From a virus: a DNA stretch of 42,682 nucleotides. Location: positions 1-42,682 of IMG/VR virus record IMGVR_UViG_3300021960_000007. One strand, written 5' to 3'. Positions 1-42,682 of the stretch are shown here, piece after piece. The notes under the pieces are model-generated. The model did not search any database, was not told the DNA's origin, and saw only the letters and a list, made by a program, of their open reading frames with translations. How positions within the stretch are numbered: the stretch's first letter is position 1; every line of letters begins with the position of its first letter. A program made the position numbers and the translations under genes.

Positions 1-25
1 GCCAAGCAAGCCAAGGTAATACATT

Positions 26-35
26 TGTGATCACA
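26..35. promoter_or_regulatory. TGTGATCACA palindrome, copy 3 of 4
   Basis: This is a perfect 10-bp palindrome preceded by ACATT and followed by AAAGGGTG. It is one of four identical copies in the control region across the contig junction. The half-site TGTGA is that of CRP/FNR-type operators, but the halves abut with no 6-bp spacer, so it is not a standard CRP box. It may be a protein-binding iteron; the binder is unknown. Confidence 0.6.
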
Positions 36-58
36 AAAGGGTGTGGGGCAGTTACATT

Positions 59-68
59 TGTGATCACA
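59..68. promoter_or_regulatory. TGTGATCACA palindrome, copy 4 of 4
   Basis: This copy is identical to the one starting at 26 and lies 33 bp from it, with the same flanks (ACATT before, AGAGGGTG after). The shared flanks show that copies 3 and 4 are a duplicated unit of about 23 bp. The G-rich tract follows immediately. Confidence 0.6.
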
Positions 69-71
69 AGA

Positions 72-94
72 GGGTGGGCATGGGGGTGCGGGGG
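72..94 (+). other. G-quadruplex-forming motif
   Basis: Four G-tracts (GGG at 72-74, GGG at 76-78, GGGGG at 82-86 and GGGGG at 90-94) are separated by loops of 1, 3 and 3 nt. This satisfies the usual intramolecular G4 rule. Such a G-rich patch is exceptional in this A+T-rich noncoding region. It sits directly beside the palindrome cluster, which suggests a role in replication initiation, packaging or termination; that role is inference. The motif recurs at 42627-42649 in the terminal repeat. Confidence 0.7.
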
Positions 95-150
95 TATCCT
101 TGTGTATGTACAATGCGACTAAACACTTTCTCACAAAAATTTTCTAGATG

Positions 151-296: not shown

Positions 297-325
297 ATTA
301 TACCATACTTTAGCACCTCTGTCAA
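297..325 (-). promoter_or_regulatory. Consensus sigma70 promoter, leftward
   Basis: The minus strand reads TTGACA (325-320), a 17-bp spacer, and TATAAT (302-297): a perfect consensus for host sigma70. It fires leftwards toward the candidate small RNA and, across the circle, the early genes. It is back-to-back with the rightward promoter at 375-403, with an A/T-rich stretch of about 50 bp between the two -35 boxes that could serve as UP elements for both. Confidence 0.8.
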
Positions 326-374
326 GACATAATAGTTAAAATAATAATTTATTTATTTATTGTCACTTTAGGGG

Positions 375-403
375 TTGACACAAGGTTAAATTTATGGTAT
401 ACT
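375..403 (+). promoter_or_regulatory. Sigma70 promoter for the rightward arm
   Basis: TTGACA (375-380), a 17-bp spacer and TATACT (398-403), one mismatch from consensus. It lies about 50 nt upstream of the terminase small subunit start, so it likely drives the first rightward (late) operon with a short leader. It is divergent from the leftward promoter at 297-325. Confidence 0.75.
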
Positions 404-455: not shown

Positions 456-983
456 ATGATGTTCTCCCTAAGTCAGATCAAAAGTGCTAACGGTAAACCA
501 AGAACCAAAAGCCTATTCTATGAGTTATCCTATGATGATCCATCTGAGTCACTATTCACATTGAAAGAACGAGACATAGAAGTCAGGGGTCAGCAAATGC
601 TATCCCTTCAGCAACTCTACGTATCAATGGTTCCAAGTGATCCCACTGAGTATGAGTTTGCTATGACAGTATTTGGTTCATGGGACTGTTGGCAAGCCAT
701 GAACAGGTCTCCTTACCTTAAGCCACACATAGCTAAGTGGAGAGCAGAAGCTGAAGTTAAGGTTAAGTCAGAGGCAATTAAAGCTATAGCACAAGAGATG
801 AAGGAGGGTGGACGTAGTTCCTTCTCCGCAGCCAAACTATTACTGGAAAAGGGTTGGCTAGATAAAGAAGCAGCTTCTAAAGCTAAACAGAAATTAAAAG
901 AAAAAGAAGAGAAAGAACTAGACAAACAGGCACTCATGTTATTGTCTGAGGATGCTAACAGGTTAGGGATCAAGGTAAACTAA
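456..983 (+). CDS. Terminase small subunit (probable)
   Basis: This 175-residue protein probably recognises phage DNA and loads the large terminase for packaging. Its middle looks like a helical DNA-binding domain, and its C-terminal third (about residues 103-165) is a highly charged Lys/Glu helix likely to oligomerise. The size and acidic/basic helical tail suit the T7-like family, but no diagnostic motif is present, so the call rests partly on position as the first late gene. Two consecutive ATG codons (456 and 459) can start it; the Shine-Dalgarno is weak (GAAG). Unusually, TerL is about 9 kb downstream, separated by the fibre module. The next gene begins 2 bases after the stop. Confidence 0.6.
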   Translation: MMFSLSQIKSANGKPRTKSLFYELSYDDPSESLFTLKERDIEVRGQQMLSLQQLYVSMVPSDPTEYEFAMTVFGSWDCWQAMNRSPYLKPHIAKWRAEAEVKVKSEAIKAIAQEMKEGGRSSFSAAKLLLEKGWLDKEAASKAKQKLKEKEEKELDKQALMLLSEDANRLGIKVN

Positions 984-8523: not shown

Positions 8524-9825
8524 ATGTTAGGCTTTTCACCATTATCTTCTGGCCCACTAGGGTCAACAGGTGCAGCTAGTTCTTCTGTTGACGGTTTCCG
8601 TATTACAGAAGCATCAGATAGCCGTATCCTTGAGAATGGTGATACAAGGGTAACTGAAAATTTTGCAGGGGCTGTACACAGTGCTGCTTCCGTTTTAACA
8701 GCCACAGGAACTTTAGCAGCTTTAGGAGTAAGGGTACAGCCTTTAGCAAGTGCTTTAAGTTCTACAGGAACACTGGCTGCTATAGGAGTAAGAGTACAGC
8801 CTTTAGCAAGTGCTTTAAGTTCTACAGGAACTTTAGCAGCTTTAGGACTAAAATCTCAACAAGCCTTAAGTGCTTTAAGTTCTACAGGAAGTCTGTCTTC
8901 TGTAGCTTCAAAAATCCAACAAGCTACTTCTGCCTTAAGTACTCAAGGTTCAAAAGTAGCAGCCTCCACATTAGGTCTTGTTAGTTCAGCTAACTTAAGT
9001 TCTTCTACTAGCCTAGTCTCAGTATCCACTAAAACTCAACAAGCAGAAAGTTCTTTAAATTCTACAGGAACACTAGCTGCTTCAGGAGAAACTACATCAA
9101 ACCTCTTAGGTGAGGTTAGTCTAACATCTACAGGAAGTCTAACAGCTTCAACTATAAGCATACAGCAAGGTTTAAGTTCTTTAAATGCTGCTGGAACTTT
9201 AGCTGCTTCAGCAGAAACTACAACAAGACATGTAGGTGTTTCTTCTTTAAGTGCATCTTCTGGTTTAACTTCTGAAGCTACACTTACACAACCTTTAGTT
9301 TCAAGTTTAACTAGCTCAGGTTCTTTTTCAGCCGAAGCTACTAAAACACAGCAAGGACTAAGTACCTTAAGTTCTACAGGAAATGTAGTTTCTTTAGGTA
9401 GTCTTATACAAGAAGCTGCTAGTTCTTTGTCAGCAGCAGGTTCCTTAGAAGCACAGGCTACAGTAGTTGGTAATATACTCCCTGCTGAATCTTCTTTAAC
9501 TGGAAGTGCTACAGTATCTGCAACAGGCTCAAATGTTGTTTACGCTGAGTTTGGTGGCGTAGACACAGAAATTACAAGAATAACTGAGGACGGTAATACA
9601 AGAGTTACCGAAGACAGTAATGTTAGAATTACCTTTGAACTTACTAACTCAGCCATAAGTTCTATAACATCTCAGCCAACCTTTATTCTATTCTCATCGA
9701 CAGCTTATATTAAAGAAAATGGTGTATGGAAAGTATTTGATCCTTATGCTAAATACGAAGGTTCTTGGGTAGAACCTGAAAAGGTCTACTACAAGGAAGG
9801 TACATCATGGCGAAGAGCACACTAA
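8524..9825 (+). CDS. Repetitive Ala/Ser fibre, 20-residue repeats
   Basis: 433 residues. Residues about 60-320 consist of roughly 13 degenerate 20-residue repeats of the type STGTLAALGVRVQPLASALS. The DNA keeps a 60-bp period, and units around 8701-8880 are nearly identical, implying recent expansion. 'RITEDGNTRVTED'-type stretches flank the repeat region on both sides (about 33-43 and 345-365). The C-terminal about 50 residues are aromatic and charged (YIKENGVWKVF, EGSWVEPEKVYYKEG), a recurring virion-protein ending. It is likely an extended fibre or stalk. A+T-rich codons set it apart from the genes at 1716-5771. Confidence 0.65.
   Translation: MLGFSPLSSGPLGSTGAASSSVDGFRITEASDSRILENGDTRVTENFAGAVHSAASVLTATGTLAALGVRVQPLASALSSTGTLAAIGVRVQPLASALSSTGTLAALGLKSQQALSALSSTGSLSSVASKIQQATSALSTQGSKVAASTLGLVSSANLSSSTSLVSVSTKTQQAESSLNSTGTLAASGETTSNLLGEVSLTSTGSLTASTISIQQGLSSLNAAGTLAASAETTTRHVGVSSLSASSGLTSEATLTQPLVSSLTSSGSFSAEATKTQQGLSTLSSTGNVVSLGSLIQEAASSLSAAGSLEAQATVVGNILPAESSLTGSATVSATGSNVVYAEFGGVDTEITRITEDGNTRVTEDSNVRITFELTNSAISSITSQPTFILFSSTAYIKENGVWKVFDPYAKYEGSWVEPEKVYYKEGTSWRRAH
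8701..9480 (+). repeat. Tandem 60-bp coding repeats
   Basis: Units of 60 bp stay in exact register for about 13 copies, each typically ending TTAAGT followed by TCTACAGGAA at the next unit. Copies at 8701, 8761 and 8821 are close to identical, while later copies are diverged. Being multiples of three, gains or losses of units keep the frame and would change fibre length. Confidence 0.75.
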
Positions 9826-35882: not shown

Positions 35883-36914
35883 TCAATGGGTATCCTTCCA
35901 GTTCTTGCCTATGTCTGTCGATCCTGCTAGTGGACATAGCATGTTGAACTTAGCTCCTGTGTCCACGATACTCTGCCTTTGCATATCACCTAACTGTTCA
36001 GCTAACTGATACGATCCTTTTACTTCTGTCTGCCACTCATCGTGAGGCCATGTCACTAGCTTGAATGGAATGTCCTGTAGCTTGGCTACTCTTGTCCATT
36101 GCAAGGCTGCGTGTTTCATTATGACACTCTCACCATTCTGTAGCATACCTGCCAGTGCCTTGTGTTCAGATGGTACGACAACCTTACGTCCATCCAAGCC
36201 CTTGAAGTACCCACGTTTAGCTACATGAGGTATGATCTTCTTCTTTAGGTCAGCTAGTCCTTGGATAGATTCCATAAAGTTATCAACAGCTTGCTTGGCT
36301 TCACGTTGATTGACCTTAAGTATCTGACTGATCTTAGCTGTACCTGCCCCTAGCAGGAAGGCATAGATGAATGTCTTAGCCATGTCCCTAGTAATGTGTG
36401 ACATACCTAGAGCCTTACGGTTAAGGTTGTGTATGTCTGTCTCATCCTCTTTCTTACCTGACACAATAGCATGGACATACTCTTCTGACTTCATTAGGTG
36501 TGCCAATACCCGTAGTTGGATACCTTCAGCATCTGTGCCGACTAACCAACTGTCCTCTGGCACTGACCACAATGCCCTGAACTGTCCGTCATACTTAGCC
36601 TTCACCTCATCGACTGATGACTTAGGATCACCATGAAACTCAGAAGGTATGTTAGCTTGGTTAGGTGCTTTGTGTGCCATACGTCCTGTCCATGCACCTA
36701 TGCCCATAAACCTACCATGAATACGGCTATCGTCACCACAGTGTCCTAGCCACTCCACCAGTGAGCTTCTGCGTCCTTCAAGGGTCAACCACTCAGTTAA
36801 TCGTTTGGCTCCTGTAGGTGCTGTCTCAGGCAGTGTGCTAAGGTTTGCCTCAGATAGTGTCCATCCGTACCTAGCAAACTTAGCCCCACGATCTTTGGTT
36901 TTGTTCTCTGTCAT
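35883..36914 (-). CDS. DNA polymerase, polymerase-domain ORF
   Basis: 343 residues from the ATG at 36914, which has AAAGGA about 10 nt upstream; the frame is open to 36959. Family A motifs are in order: motif A VGTDAEGIQLR (Asp128), O helix RDMAKTFIYAF (Arg176, Lys180, Tyr184) and motif C PHDEW (His291-Asp-Glu293). Tyr184 matches T7 Tyr526 and Pol I Phe762. The residue matching T7 Tyr530/Pol I Tyr766 is Leu188. The exonuclease half is in a separate, overlapping ORF; a +1 shift would fuse them. Replicative polymerase of the phage. Confidence 0.85.
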   Translation of the reverse strand: MTENKTKDRGAKFARYGWTLSEANLSTLPETAPTGAKRLTEWLTLEGRRSSLVEWLGHCGDDSRIHGRFMGIGAWTGRMAHKAPNQANIPSEFHGDPKSSVDEVKAKYDGQFRALWSVPEDSWLVGTDAEGIQLRVLAHLMKSEEYVHAIVSGKKEDETDIHNLNRKALGMSHITRDMAKTFIYAFLLGAGTAKISQILKVNQREAKQAVDNFMESIQGLADLKKKIIPHVAKRGYFKGLDGRKVVVPSEHKALAGMLQNGESVIMKHAALQWTRVAKLQDIPFKLVTWPHDEWQTEVKGSYQLAEQLGDMQRQSIVDTGAKFNMLCPLAGSTDIGKNWKDTH

Positions 36915-37779
36915 ACGTAATGTGTCCTTTGGTTTTGTCCAATGGTTTCCAACCTGCATCCCATAGCCTTTCTATACGCATCTTAGGTGATGCAGGGTTG
37001 AACTCTACCCAATCATAGCATATTAATTGGGGTGGGTAAACTGATTTGTCAACCTTTGTCTTAGCATATTTTACTATTGCATTGACAACACCTGATACTG
37101 GTGAGCCATCTTTCTTCTTACGGTAGAGTATTCTATTCACCTCTTCTAGTTGTGGTGGAAAGTCTACCTGCAATCCTTCCTCTAGCTCTGTCATACGTAG
37201 TTCTATTTCATCTAGCAAATGGTCAGCAGGTTCTTTCTCGAAGTAGAAACCATTGCTTGTCATCTCTTCACATAGTATTTGTATGTCGTGTTCACACCTG
37301 ATAGCATCCTTCCATACAGGGTCTTGTATAACTGGTAAGAACTTCTTGTATAGTTTAGTAGTGACAACCACATCCTGATGGCAGTAGTCAATCATCTCTT
37401 GTGTCAAGACAGAGAAATCATTGAAGTCCATCTTGAAGTCACCTAGTCTTTTACCCCATGCCTTAAGGCCATGCCCACCCTTTAGTCCGTAGTCTATAAG
37501 GCGAGACAGAACAAGAGTATCAATAACCATAAAAGGATTGATGCAATCTTTCTTGACCAACCTGTTGATAACACCAGCGTCAAAGCCAATCCCATTGTGG
37601 AAAACAAAACGGTCAACTGTACTACAAAACTCAATGAACCTGCCCCTTTCCTCTGGTATTGTATCCACATTCAAGAACTGGTATGTCTCTCCTGTGCCTA
37701 CGTCCTGACCACAGACAACCCAAATGCGTGTAGCATCCAGTGCATCTGTCTCAATATCCATAGCAACTATCTTAGTCAT
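36880..37779 (-). CDS. DNA polymerase, 3'-5' exonuclease-domain ORF
   Basis: 299 residues carrying the proofreading half of a T7 gp5-like polymerase: MDIETDALD (Asp8, Glu10), 'FHNGIGFDAGVI', 'YCHQDVVVTTKLY' (ExoIII) and then the start of the polymerase region up to 'FNPASPKMRIERLWDAGWKP'. The stop (36880-36882) comes just after a G4 run (36884-36887), and the second ORF continues the homologous sequence in the +1 frame. Either the gene is naturally split, translation shifts, or an indel lies in the homopolymer. It overlaps the upstream gene by 8 nt. Confidence 0.85.
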   Translation of the reverse strand: MTKIVAMDIETDALDATRIWVVCGQDVGTGETYQFLNVDTIPEERGRFIEFCSTVDRFVFHNGIGFDAGVINRLVKKDCINPFMVIDTLVLSRLIDYGLKGGHGLKAWGKRLGDFKMDFNDFSVLTQEMIDYCHQDVVVTTKLYKKFLPVIQDPVWKDAIRCEHDIQILCEEMTSNGFYFEKEPADHLLDEIELRMTELEEGLQVDFPPQLEEVNRILYRKKKDGSPVSGVVNAIVKYAKTKVDKSVYPPQLICYDWVEFNPASPKMRIERLWDAGWKPLDKTKGHITYDREQNQRSWG

Positions 37780-41993: not shown

Positions 41994-42152
41994 TTAATCT
42001 TTCAAACTGTTTTTGTTATCAGAGAATAAAGTTATCTCAAACACACCACCTTCAGTTTTAATCCTTATTTTTTTGACCCATGAGCCCGTACCCTCTAGCT
42101 GATATGTTTCGGTTTCAATTTCTTCTACGTGATGGATGCTTAAGTTAGTCAT
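41994..42152 (-). CDS. First leftward early gene, hypothetical
   Basis: 52 residues from the ATG at 42152, with CAAAGGAAAAAACAAA upstream; a longer frame begins at 42215 but has no such site. It starts MTNLSIHHVEEIE and is a mixed alpha/beta protein ending KNSLKD. It is the first gene after the control region. Function unknown; position suggests an immediate-early host-takeover protein. Confidence 0.6.
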   Translation of the reverse strand: MTNLSIHHVEEIETETYQLEGTGSWVKKIRIKTEGGVFEITLFSDNKNSLKD

Positions 42153-42507: not shown

Positions 42508-42517
42508 TGTGATCACA
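42508..42517. promoter_or_regulatory. TGTGATCACA palindrome, copy 1 of 4
   Basis: Perfect 10-bp palindrome, 31 bp before copy 2. It is the outermost of the four copies that run from here across the contig junction to position 68. Confidence 0.6.
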
Positions 42518-42538
42518 TTTCCCATAGAAAATACATTA

Positions 42539-42548
42539 TGTGATCACA
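42539..42548. promoter_or_regulatory. TGTGATCACA palindrome, copy 2 of 4
   Basis: Identical to copy 1; the next copy (42581-42590, equal to 26-35) is 42 bp on. Centre-to-centre spacings of the four copies are 31, 42 and 33 bp, close to 3, 4 and 3 turns of B-DNA, which places the sites on roughly one face of the helix. Confidence 0.6.
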
Positions 42549-42555
42549 AAAGAGA

Positions 42556-42682
42556 GCCAAGCAAGCCAAGGTAATACATTTGTGATCACAAAAGGGTGTG
42601 GGGCAGTTACATTTGTGATCACAAGAGGGTGGGCATGGGGGTGCGGGGGTATCCTTGTGTATGTACAATGCGACTAAACACT
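42556..42682. repeat. Terminal direct repeat, right copy
   Basis: Exact copy of positions 1-127. Joining the ends at this overlap gives a 42,555-bp sequence in which the control region and early and late arms become continuous. Confidence 0.97.

Follow-up and report, generated by a model that had tools for sequence, protein, structure and literature searches.

The window, i.e., the whole stretch of 42,682 nt that was analysed (IMG/VR record IMGVR_UViG_3300021960_000007), is organized in two opposed gene arms, the leftward arm encoding replication and nucleotide metabolism functions (primase/helicase, a split DNA polymerase, thymidylate synthase, and ribonucleotide reductase), whereas structural functions (terminase, portal, and capsid) are encoded in the rightward arm. 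The window is most similar to the records of Roseobacter phage CRP-5 and Lentibacter phage ICBM2. Together with homology to Veravirus CRP-5, ICBM2, and CRP-4, this arrangement identifies the window phage, by sequence comparison, as a Cobavirinae-type (Veravirus-like) podovirus. The DNA polymerase (35883–37779) consists of two overlapping ORFs, corresponding to the exonuclease and polymerase parts; the annotations of CRP-5 and ICBM2 show this split, that of CRP-4 does not. In addition, imperfect tandem coding repeats of ~60 nt were noticed at 8694–9398, inside an ORF (8524–9825) without a PHROG family match.

A palindrome array between the gene arms

The divergent region between the two arms harbors copies of the palindrome TGTGATCACA, which were located by exact matching across the whole window. 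The array and the first gene of each arm are as follows:

42508..42517, no strand: palindrome 1, TGTGATCACA, exact match; outer edge of the predicted terminal repeat
42539..42548, no strand: palindrome 2, exact match, 31 bp from palindrome 1; conserved in the loci L372 and L377
42581..42590, no strand: palindrome 3, exact match, 42 bp from palindrome 2; same site as 26..35
42614..42623, no strand: palindrome 4, exact match, 33 bp from palindrome 3; same site as 59..68
26..35, no strand: duplicate of palindrome 3 at the contig start
59..68, no strand: duplicate of palindrome 4 at the contig start
41994..42152, minus strand: first leftward (early-side) ORF, with its ATG at 42152 after AAAGGA; the replication genes follow on the same strand
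456..983, plus strand: first gene of the rightward (structural-side) arm, phrog_8035, which served as the anchor for finding relatives

The four identical palindromes reported in the preliminary description are thus real, with exact matches starting at 42508, 42539, 42581, and 42614, and their start-to-start steps of 31, 42, and 33 bp correspond to 2.95, 4.0, and 3.1 turns at 10.5 bp. The array is located ~0.36 kb from the first early ATG. That the genome contains no other copy, as had also been claimed, does not hold literally, since the terminal duplication adds copies at 26 and 59. Window 1–127 is identical, letter for letter, to 42556–42682, and 127 nt is a common assembler k-mer length; this assembler-type terminal overlap implies that the contig represents a closed circle of 42,555 unique bp with exactly four sites. 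For the circular genome, in which TGTGATCACA occurs nowhere else, the claim stands.

One exact 10-mer is expected ~0.04 times per 42.5 kb, and four copies within 116 bp are therefore not due to chance. When up to 1 mismatch was allowed, 7 matches to TGTGATCACA were found in the window, a number that was never reached in 100 shuffles (mean 1.85). A chance origin of the array is excluded, locally by these shuffles and far more strongly by the arrays of other phages. While the half-sites are identical to those of the CRP site TGTGA-N6-TCACA, they are fused (zero spacer) in all window copies, none of which shows the CRP-like 6-bp spacer. A CRP-type site was therefore ruled out, and the fused 10-bp palindrome represents a different operator.

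Phased arrays in other roseophages

An exact scan of IMG/VR for two palindromes 25–55 bp apart revealed at least 119 viral contigs with phased arrays. Dereplication left 58 groups, i.e., distinct loci, most of which belong to HMO-2011-type roseophages and some to Cobavirinae. In control scans, for which all matches were listed, the reversed motif was found in 9 contigs and another palindrome, TGTCATGACA, in 44 contigs. Many of the array groups could be identified as HMO-2011-type via the portal, and others are Cobavirinae-like; the wider consensus of the phage sites is TTTGTGATCACAAA. Nearly all spacings within the 58 groups are 20–23, 29–34, 39–48, or 52–55 bp and none is 24–28, 35–38, or 49–51 bp, i.e., they cluster at 2, 3, 4, and 5 helical turns while the gaps between are empty. 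Phasing at 10.5–11 bp across the 58 dereplicated clusters is reflected in a Rayleigh R of 0.66–0.68 (n = 92, p ~1e-17). The near-whole-turn spacing that had been pointed out for the window was hereby confirmed through a stricter phasing than four sites could provide.

Among isolates, CRP-603 carries four sites, CRP-13 two and a third with 1 mismatch, CRP-1 and CRP-345 two each, and CRP-2 one. The CRP-603 array is placed much as in the window. It occupies part of the 1.2 kb that separate two divergent operons, lying upstream of gp01, on the replication side, at a distance of ~0.33 kb. No site was found in HMO-2011 (a SAR116 phage), HTVC115P and HTVC033P (SAR11), or phiM6 (Sinorhizobium), nor in ICBM1, ICBM2, SIO1, P12053L, CRP-4, CRP-5, and several further CRP phages. 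Host strain FZCC0023 is shared by CRP-13, which has sites, and CRP-4, which has none.

Relatives of the window phage were gathered by the neighboring protein (456–983) and not by the motif, and 31 of them had enough upstream DNA. At least one site was present 300–650 bp upstream in 21 of these 31 (exact in 14, with one mismatch in the rest), compared to 0 of 31 for the reversed motif. Absence from all close relatives, which the preliminary description had named as evidence against its reading, was thus not observed; the sites recur in the same place. The closest relatives L378 and L382 retain all four sites and their spacing, and L379 differs by one step of 41 instead of 42 bp, while L383 and L384 have four sites each in a different layout. 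In terminal-repeat alignments of three groups, variable columns amounted to 0 of 100 within palindromes and 52 of 458 elsewhere (Fisher p = 3e-5, a somewhat flattering value, as the alignment set was partly motif-selected). The remaining 10 relatives lack a site, and most of them keep the repeat end, the leftward promoter P_L, or both. Since siteless relatives retain these elements and phages of the same host differ, the array is optional and not essential.

The host operator and its regulator

In a bacterial scan, the palindrome was found nearly only in Rhodobacterales, almost always as a pair 20–21 bp apart (N10-11). In 48 of 119 loci this pair precedes sucC by ~60–150 bp, and at other loci it is located upstream of sdhC. 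The pair is present in 94 of 150 genomes from the family of the Planktomarina reference (Rhodobacteraceae) versus 3 of 240 across Alphaproteobacteria, and of the latter 3, at least 1 besides the Planktomarina reference also belongs to the family. Planktomarina is the lineage of the RCA hosts of CRP phages (PMC6918029). Its genome contains 15 palindromes, most of which are inside genes and not regulatory-looking; single copies are therefore weak evidence, and it is pairs and arrays that count. A search for a conserved promoter following the host pair gave nothing clear. The host sucC pairs (L140–L258) are often embedded in a longer inverted repeat, GCGACATTTGTGATCACA-N-TGTGATCACAAATGTCGC, of which phage sites 3 and 4 retain ACATT.

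The palindrome GTGATCAC was found among the AkgR binding sites of Rhodobacter sphaeroides (PMC6365646), and for the GntR regulator RSP_0981 the predicted targets are sucCD, sdh, and the genes for alpha-ketoglutarate dehydrogenase (PMC4344238). All four window sites contain the core GTGATCAC, and in hosts the motif is located upstream of TCA-cycle genes. We take RSP_0981 to be AkgR, and Imam et al. 2015 reportedly found that AkgR activates TCA genes. The motif also occurs at the regulator's own gene: in Planktomarina, a palindrome overlaps the start codon of a GntR+FCD gene that adjoins lpd and lies 9 kb from the sucC pair. This gene, located beside the suc operon, represents the AkgR ortholog. 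Most of the family possesses orthologs of it; an exact site at most 90 bp upstream was present for 13 of 30 orthologs, compared to 0 of 180 background windows.

The phage arrays share with the AkgR (RSP_0981) operators at Rhodobacteraceae sucC and sdhC the 10-bp palindrome, the TTT...AAA flank, the helical spacing, and the upstream position. They differ in copy number and spacing, since host AkgR loci have two copies 20–21 bp apart, whereas phages have two to four, mostly 30–34, 39–48, or 52–55 bp apart, in front of phage genes. No GntR gene was found in 31 phage records, window included, and a phage-encoded GntR protein was therefore dropped as a candidate. The view of the preliminary description that this is a cooperative-looking array of binding sites, probably for a host protein, thereby gains substance, and on the strength of the operator match it is very likely that AkgR binds the window palindromes.

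It could be argued that a phage regulator has escaped recognition among the small early ORFs, most of which lack a family match, and that the resemblance to the AkgR operator reflects coincidence or motif capture. However, the commonest small protein families of array-bearing loci have no member in the window, and the exact host operator, with its TTT/AAA flanks, is common to all arrays. Moreover, the traceable site-bearing phages infect Rhodobacteraceae, while no sites occur in comparable phages of SAR11, SAR116, and Sinorhizobium. We therefore consider such a regulator very unlikely.

The preliminary description had also brought up origin iterons. Iterons bound by a replication initiator would fit phased repeated sites in a noncoding region and the minimum of the cumulative GC skew around the contig ends. 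Yet the turn in skew coincides with the turn in gene direction and is confounded by it, no phage DNA-binding protein or candidate initiator was found among the early ORFs searched, and the host motif is located at sucC and sdhC, not at an origin. Iterons thus gain no support from this analysis, and we regard them as very unlikely.

Terminal repeat, promoters, and predicted role

Three further features frame the array:

42511..42669, no strand: predicted direct terminal repeat; approximate, placed by homology with the 159-bp ICBM2 length assumed
297..325, minus strand: P_L, TTGACA-17-TATAAT (12/12), pointing left to the array and the early genes once the ends are joined
375..403, plus strand: P_R, TTGACA-17-TATACT (11/12), pointing right to the structural genes

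The annotated 159-bp direct terminal repeat of ICBM2 ends exactly after ...GGGGGTAGCCTGCTGTATGTACAAT, i.e., after TGTATGTACAAT, and the G-tract together with TGTATGTACAAT recurs at window 103–114, which equals 42658–42669. This places palindromes 2–4 inside the predicted repeat and palindrome 1 at its edge; the distance of palindrome 1 to the repeat end is the same in L372 and L377. Terminal repeats measure 159–173 bp in Cobavirinae isolates, while that of the window is predicted by homology, its 127-nt contig overlap being of the assembler type. The earlier suspicion of a genome-end location was nevertheless borne out, in that the array fills the predicted direct terminal repeat. With the direct terminal repeats of the Cobavirinae ICBM1–3 (PMC6775973), the window repeat shares its place between the gene arms, the G-rich end, and TGTATGTACAAT. 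In contrast to the window repeat, filled by four copies, no TGTGATCACA was found in the repeats of ICBM2 and, by homology, CRP-5, both of which keep the repeat end. Of the further functions proposed at the outset, a required packaging signal is unlikely, and a packaging signal as such was ruled out, since ICBM2 and CRP-5 keep this end without palindromes; a partition site gained no support.

A role at the terminus could also take the form of AkgR, or a host protein of the same specificity, bridging or protecting the incoming linear ends or aiding concatemer processing or packaging. This would be in line with the Cobavirinae array filling the terminal repeat, with the innermost palindrome 57–60 nt from the repeat end in 12 of 12 motif-selected Cobavirinae contigs, and with the suggestion that the G+C-rich repeat end is an enzyme-binding site (PMC6775973). 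However, the innermost site of L034 is 118 nt from the end, the repeat ends of ICBM2 and CRP-5 show that palindromes are not needed for packaging, and terminal placement is a homology-based prediction that covers the Cobavirinae-type arrays and not those of HMO-2011-type phages. A terminus element is therefore improbable in our assessment.

With regard to promoters, window 297–403 contains back-to-back near-perfect sigma-70 promoters with a TG before the -10, of which the leftward one is kept across Cobavirus-like relatives. Nearly all relatives with at least 60% identity have a promoter matching P_L at positions -131 to -181 relative to the flanking gene, whether palindromes are present or absent. 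P_L is located on the far side of the array, 228 bp away, and no strong promoter was seen in the window between the array and the early genes. Across the phage array groups, a search for a -10 at a fixed distance from the arrays gave nothing clear, and no activator-type promoter at a constant distance was found. An activator-dependent promoter at TGTATGTACAAT, with a -10-like TACAAT 40 bp outside the array, was considered and dropped, as this element is the ICBM2 terminal-repeat boundary and is kept in phages without palindromes.

Taken together, the array probably constitutes a row of four host AkgR operators with a cis-regulatory function in front of the early operon, and its placement in the terminal repeat is probably the result of convergence. 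That two families with different genes both have the array at a fixed place before the early operon points to cis control, and we see roughly even chances that control of early transcription is the main use of the array. Under this reading, the phage would carry the operator while the host would supply AkgR, whose dimers may sit side by side on the phased sites along one DNA face, where neighboring dimers could touch each other, RNA polymerase, or a loop. AkgR occupancy might then tune transcription of the early operon, and early expression would follow the carbon and energy state of the host. AkgR could either activate or obstruct the leftward transcription that starts at P_L, or activate the early operon otherwise; since P_L is on the far side, the array would be inside the P_L leader in joined DNA, an arrangement at least as compatible with a block as with activation. 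On linear incoming DNA, the early-side repeat copy would instead form the most distal upstream element of the early operon.

Alternatively, the sites could act as a titration decoy, with replicating phage genomes soaking up AkgR and thereby lowering expression of the host TCA cycle, no phage promoter being regulated. Phage and host sites share a consensus, and each genome offers several near-perfect sites, doubled in the virion if they are in the terminal repeat. A decoy would, however, require neither helical phasing nor a fixed place, both of which are kept in two unrelated phage families, and we consider it unlikely. A more far-reaching scenario appears rather doubtful to us, namely that two unrelated lytic roseophage families independently built AkgR arrays, those of Cobavirinae in the terminal repeat, and that AkgR at the DNA end senses the metabolic state and gates early transcription, possibly bridging the ends as well. 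If end-bound AkgR did gate early transcription, infection timing would be set directly by the control that metabolites exert on host carbon flux.

The closest known parallel is provided by marine cyanophages, whose Pho boxes have been experimentally shown to be bound by host PhoB (PMC10976474). In both cases, lytic marine phages have the operator of a host metabolic regulator (in the window, as judged by sequence) in front of phage genes, which for the cyanophages include the DNA polymerase, an arrangement through which infection can track the physiology of the host; by analogy, the nearest kind is that of host-regulator operators captured by lytic marine phages. The Pho boxes differ in that they involve a response regulator and other hosts and are experimentally established, and no description presents them as arrays of phased palindromes located in a terminal repeat. 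What is new here is the central-carbon regulator, the phased palindrome arrays, the place in the terminal repeat, and the occurrence in at least two unrelated roseophage families. Promoters, palindromes, or sites of this type receive no mention in the papers on RCA, HMO-2011-type, and Cobavirus phages that were searched, and the literature search yielded no phage-related occurrence of the 10-mer.

Roseobacter phages are abundant in the sea, and the palindrome arrays bear on how phages read host physiology. If AkgR binds these arrays, control of the host TCA cycle would be built into lytic infection by phage groups through which much marine carbon is turned over, forming a heterotroph counterpart to the Pho boxes of cyanophages. 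For uncultivated Rhodobacteraceae phages, the palindrome may also be of use as a marker in host prediction.

Furthermore, it should be noted that additional site pairs and triplets were encountered. A separate phage group (L025, L056, and L067) has three palindromes 22 bp apart, near the host spacing. In Planktomarina, a 28-bp-spaced pair (L305, 1399–1436) is located between small hypothetical ORFs away from TCA genes and could be a further AkgR target or a mobile-element remnant. Finally, the TGTCATGACA control pair in 44 viral contigs (L320–L363) is often spaced ~25–27 bp apart and possibly represents another conserved operator pair.
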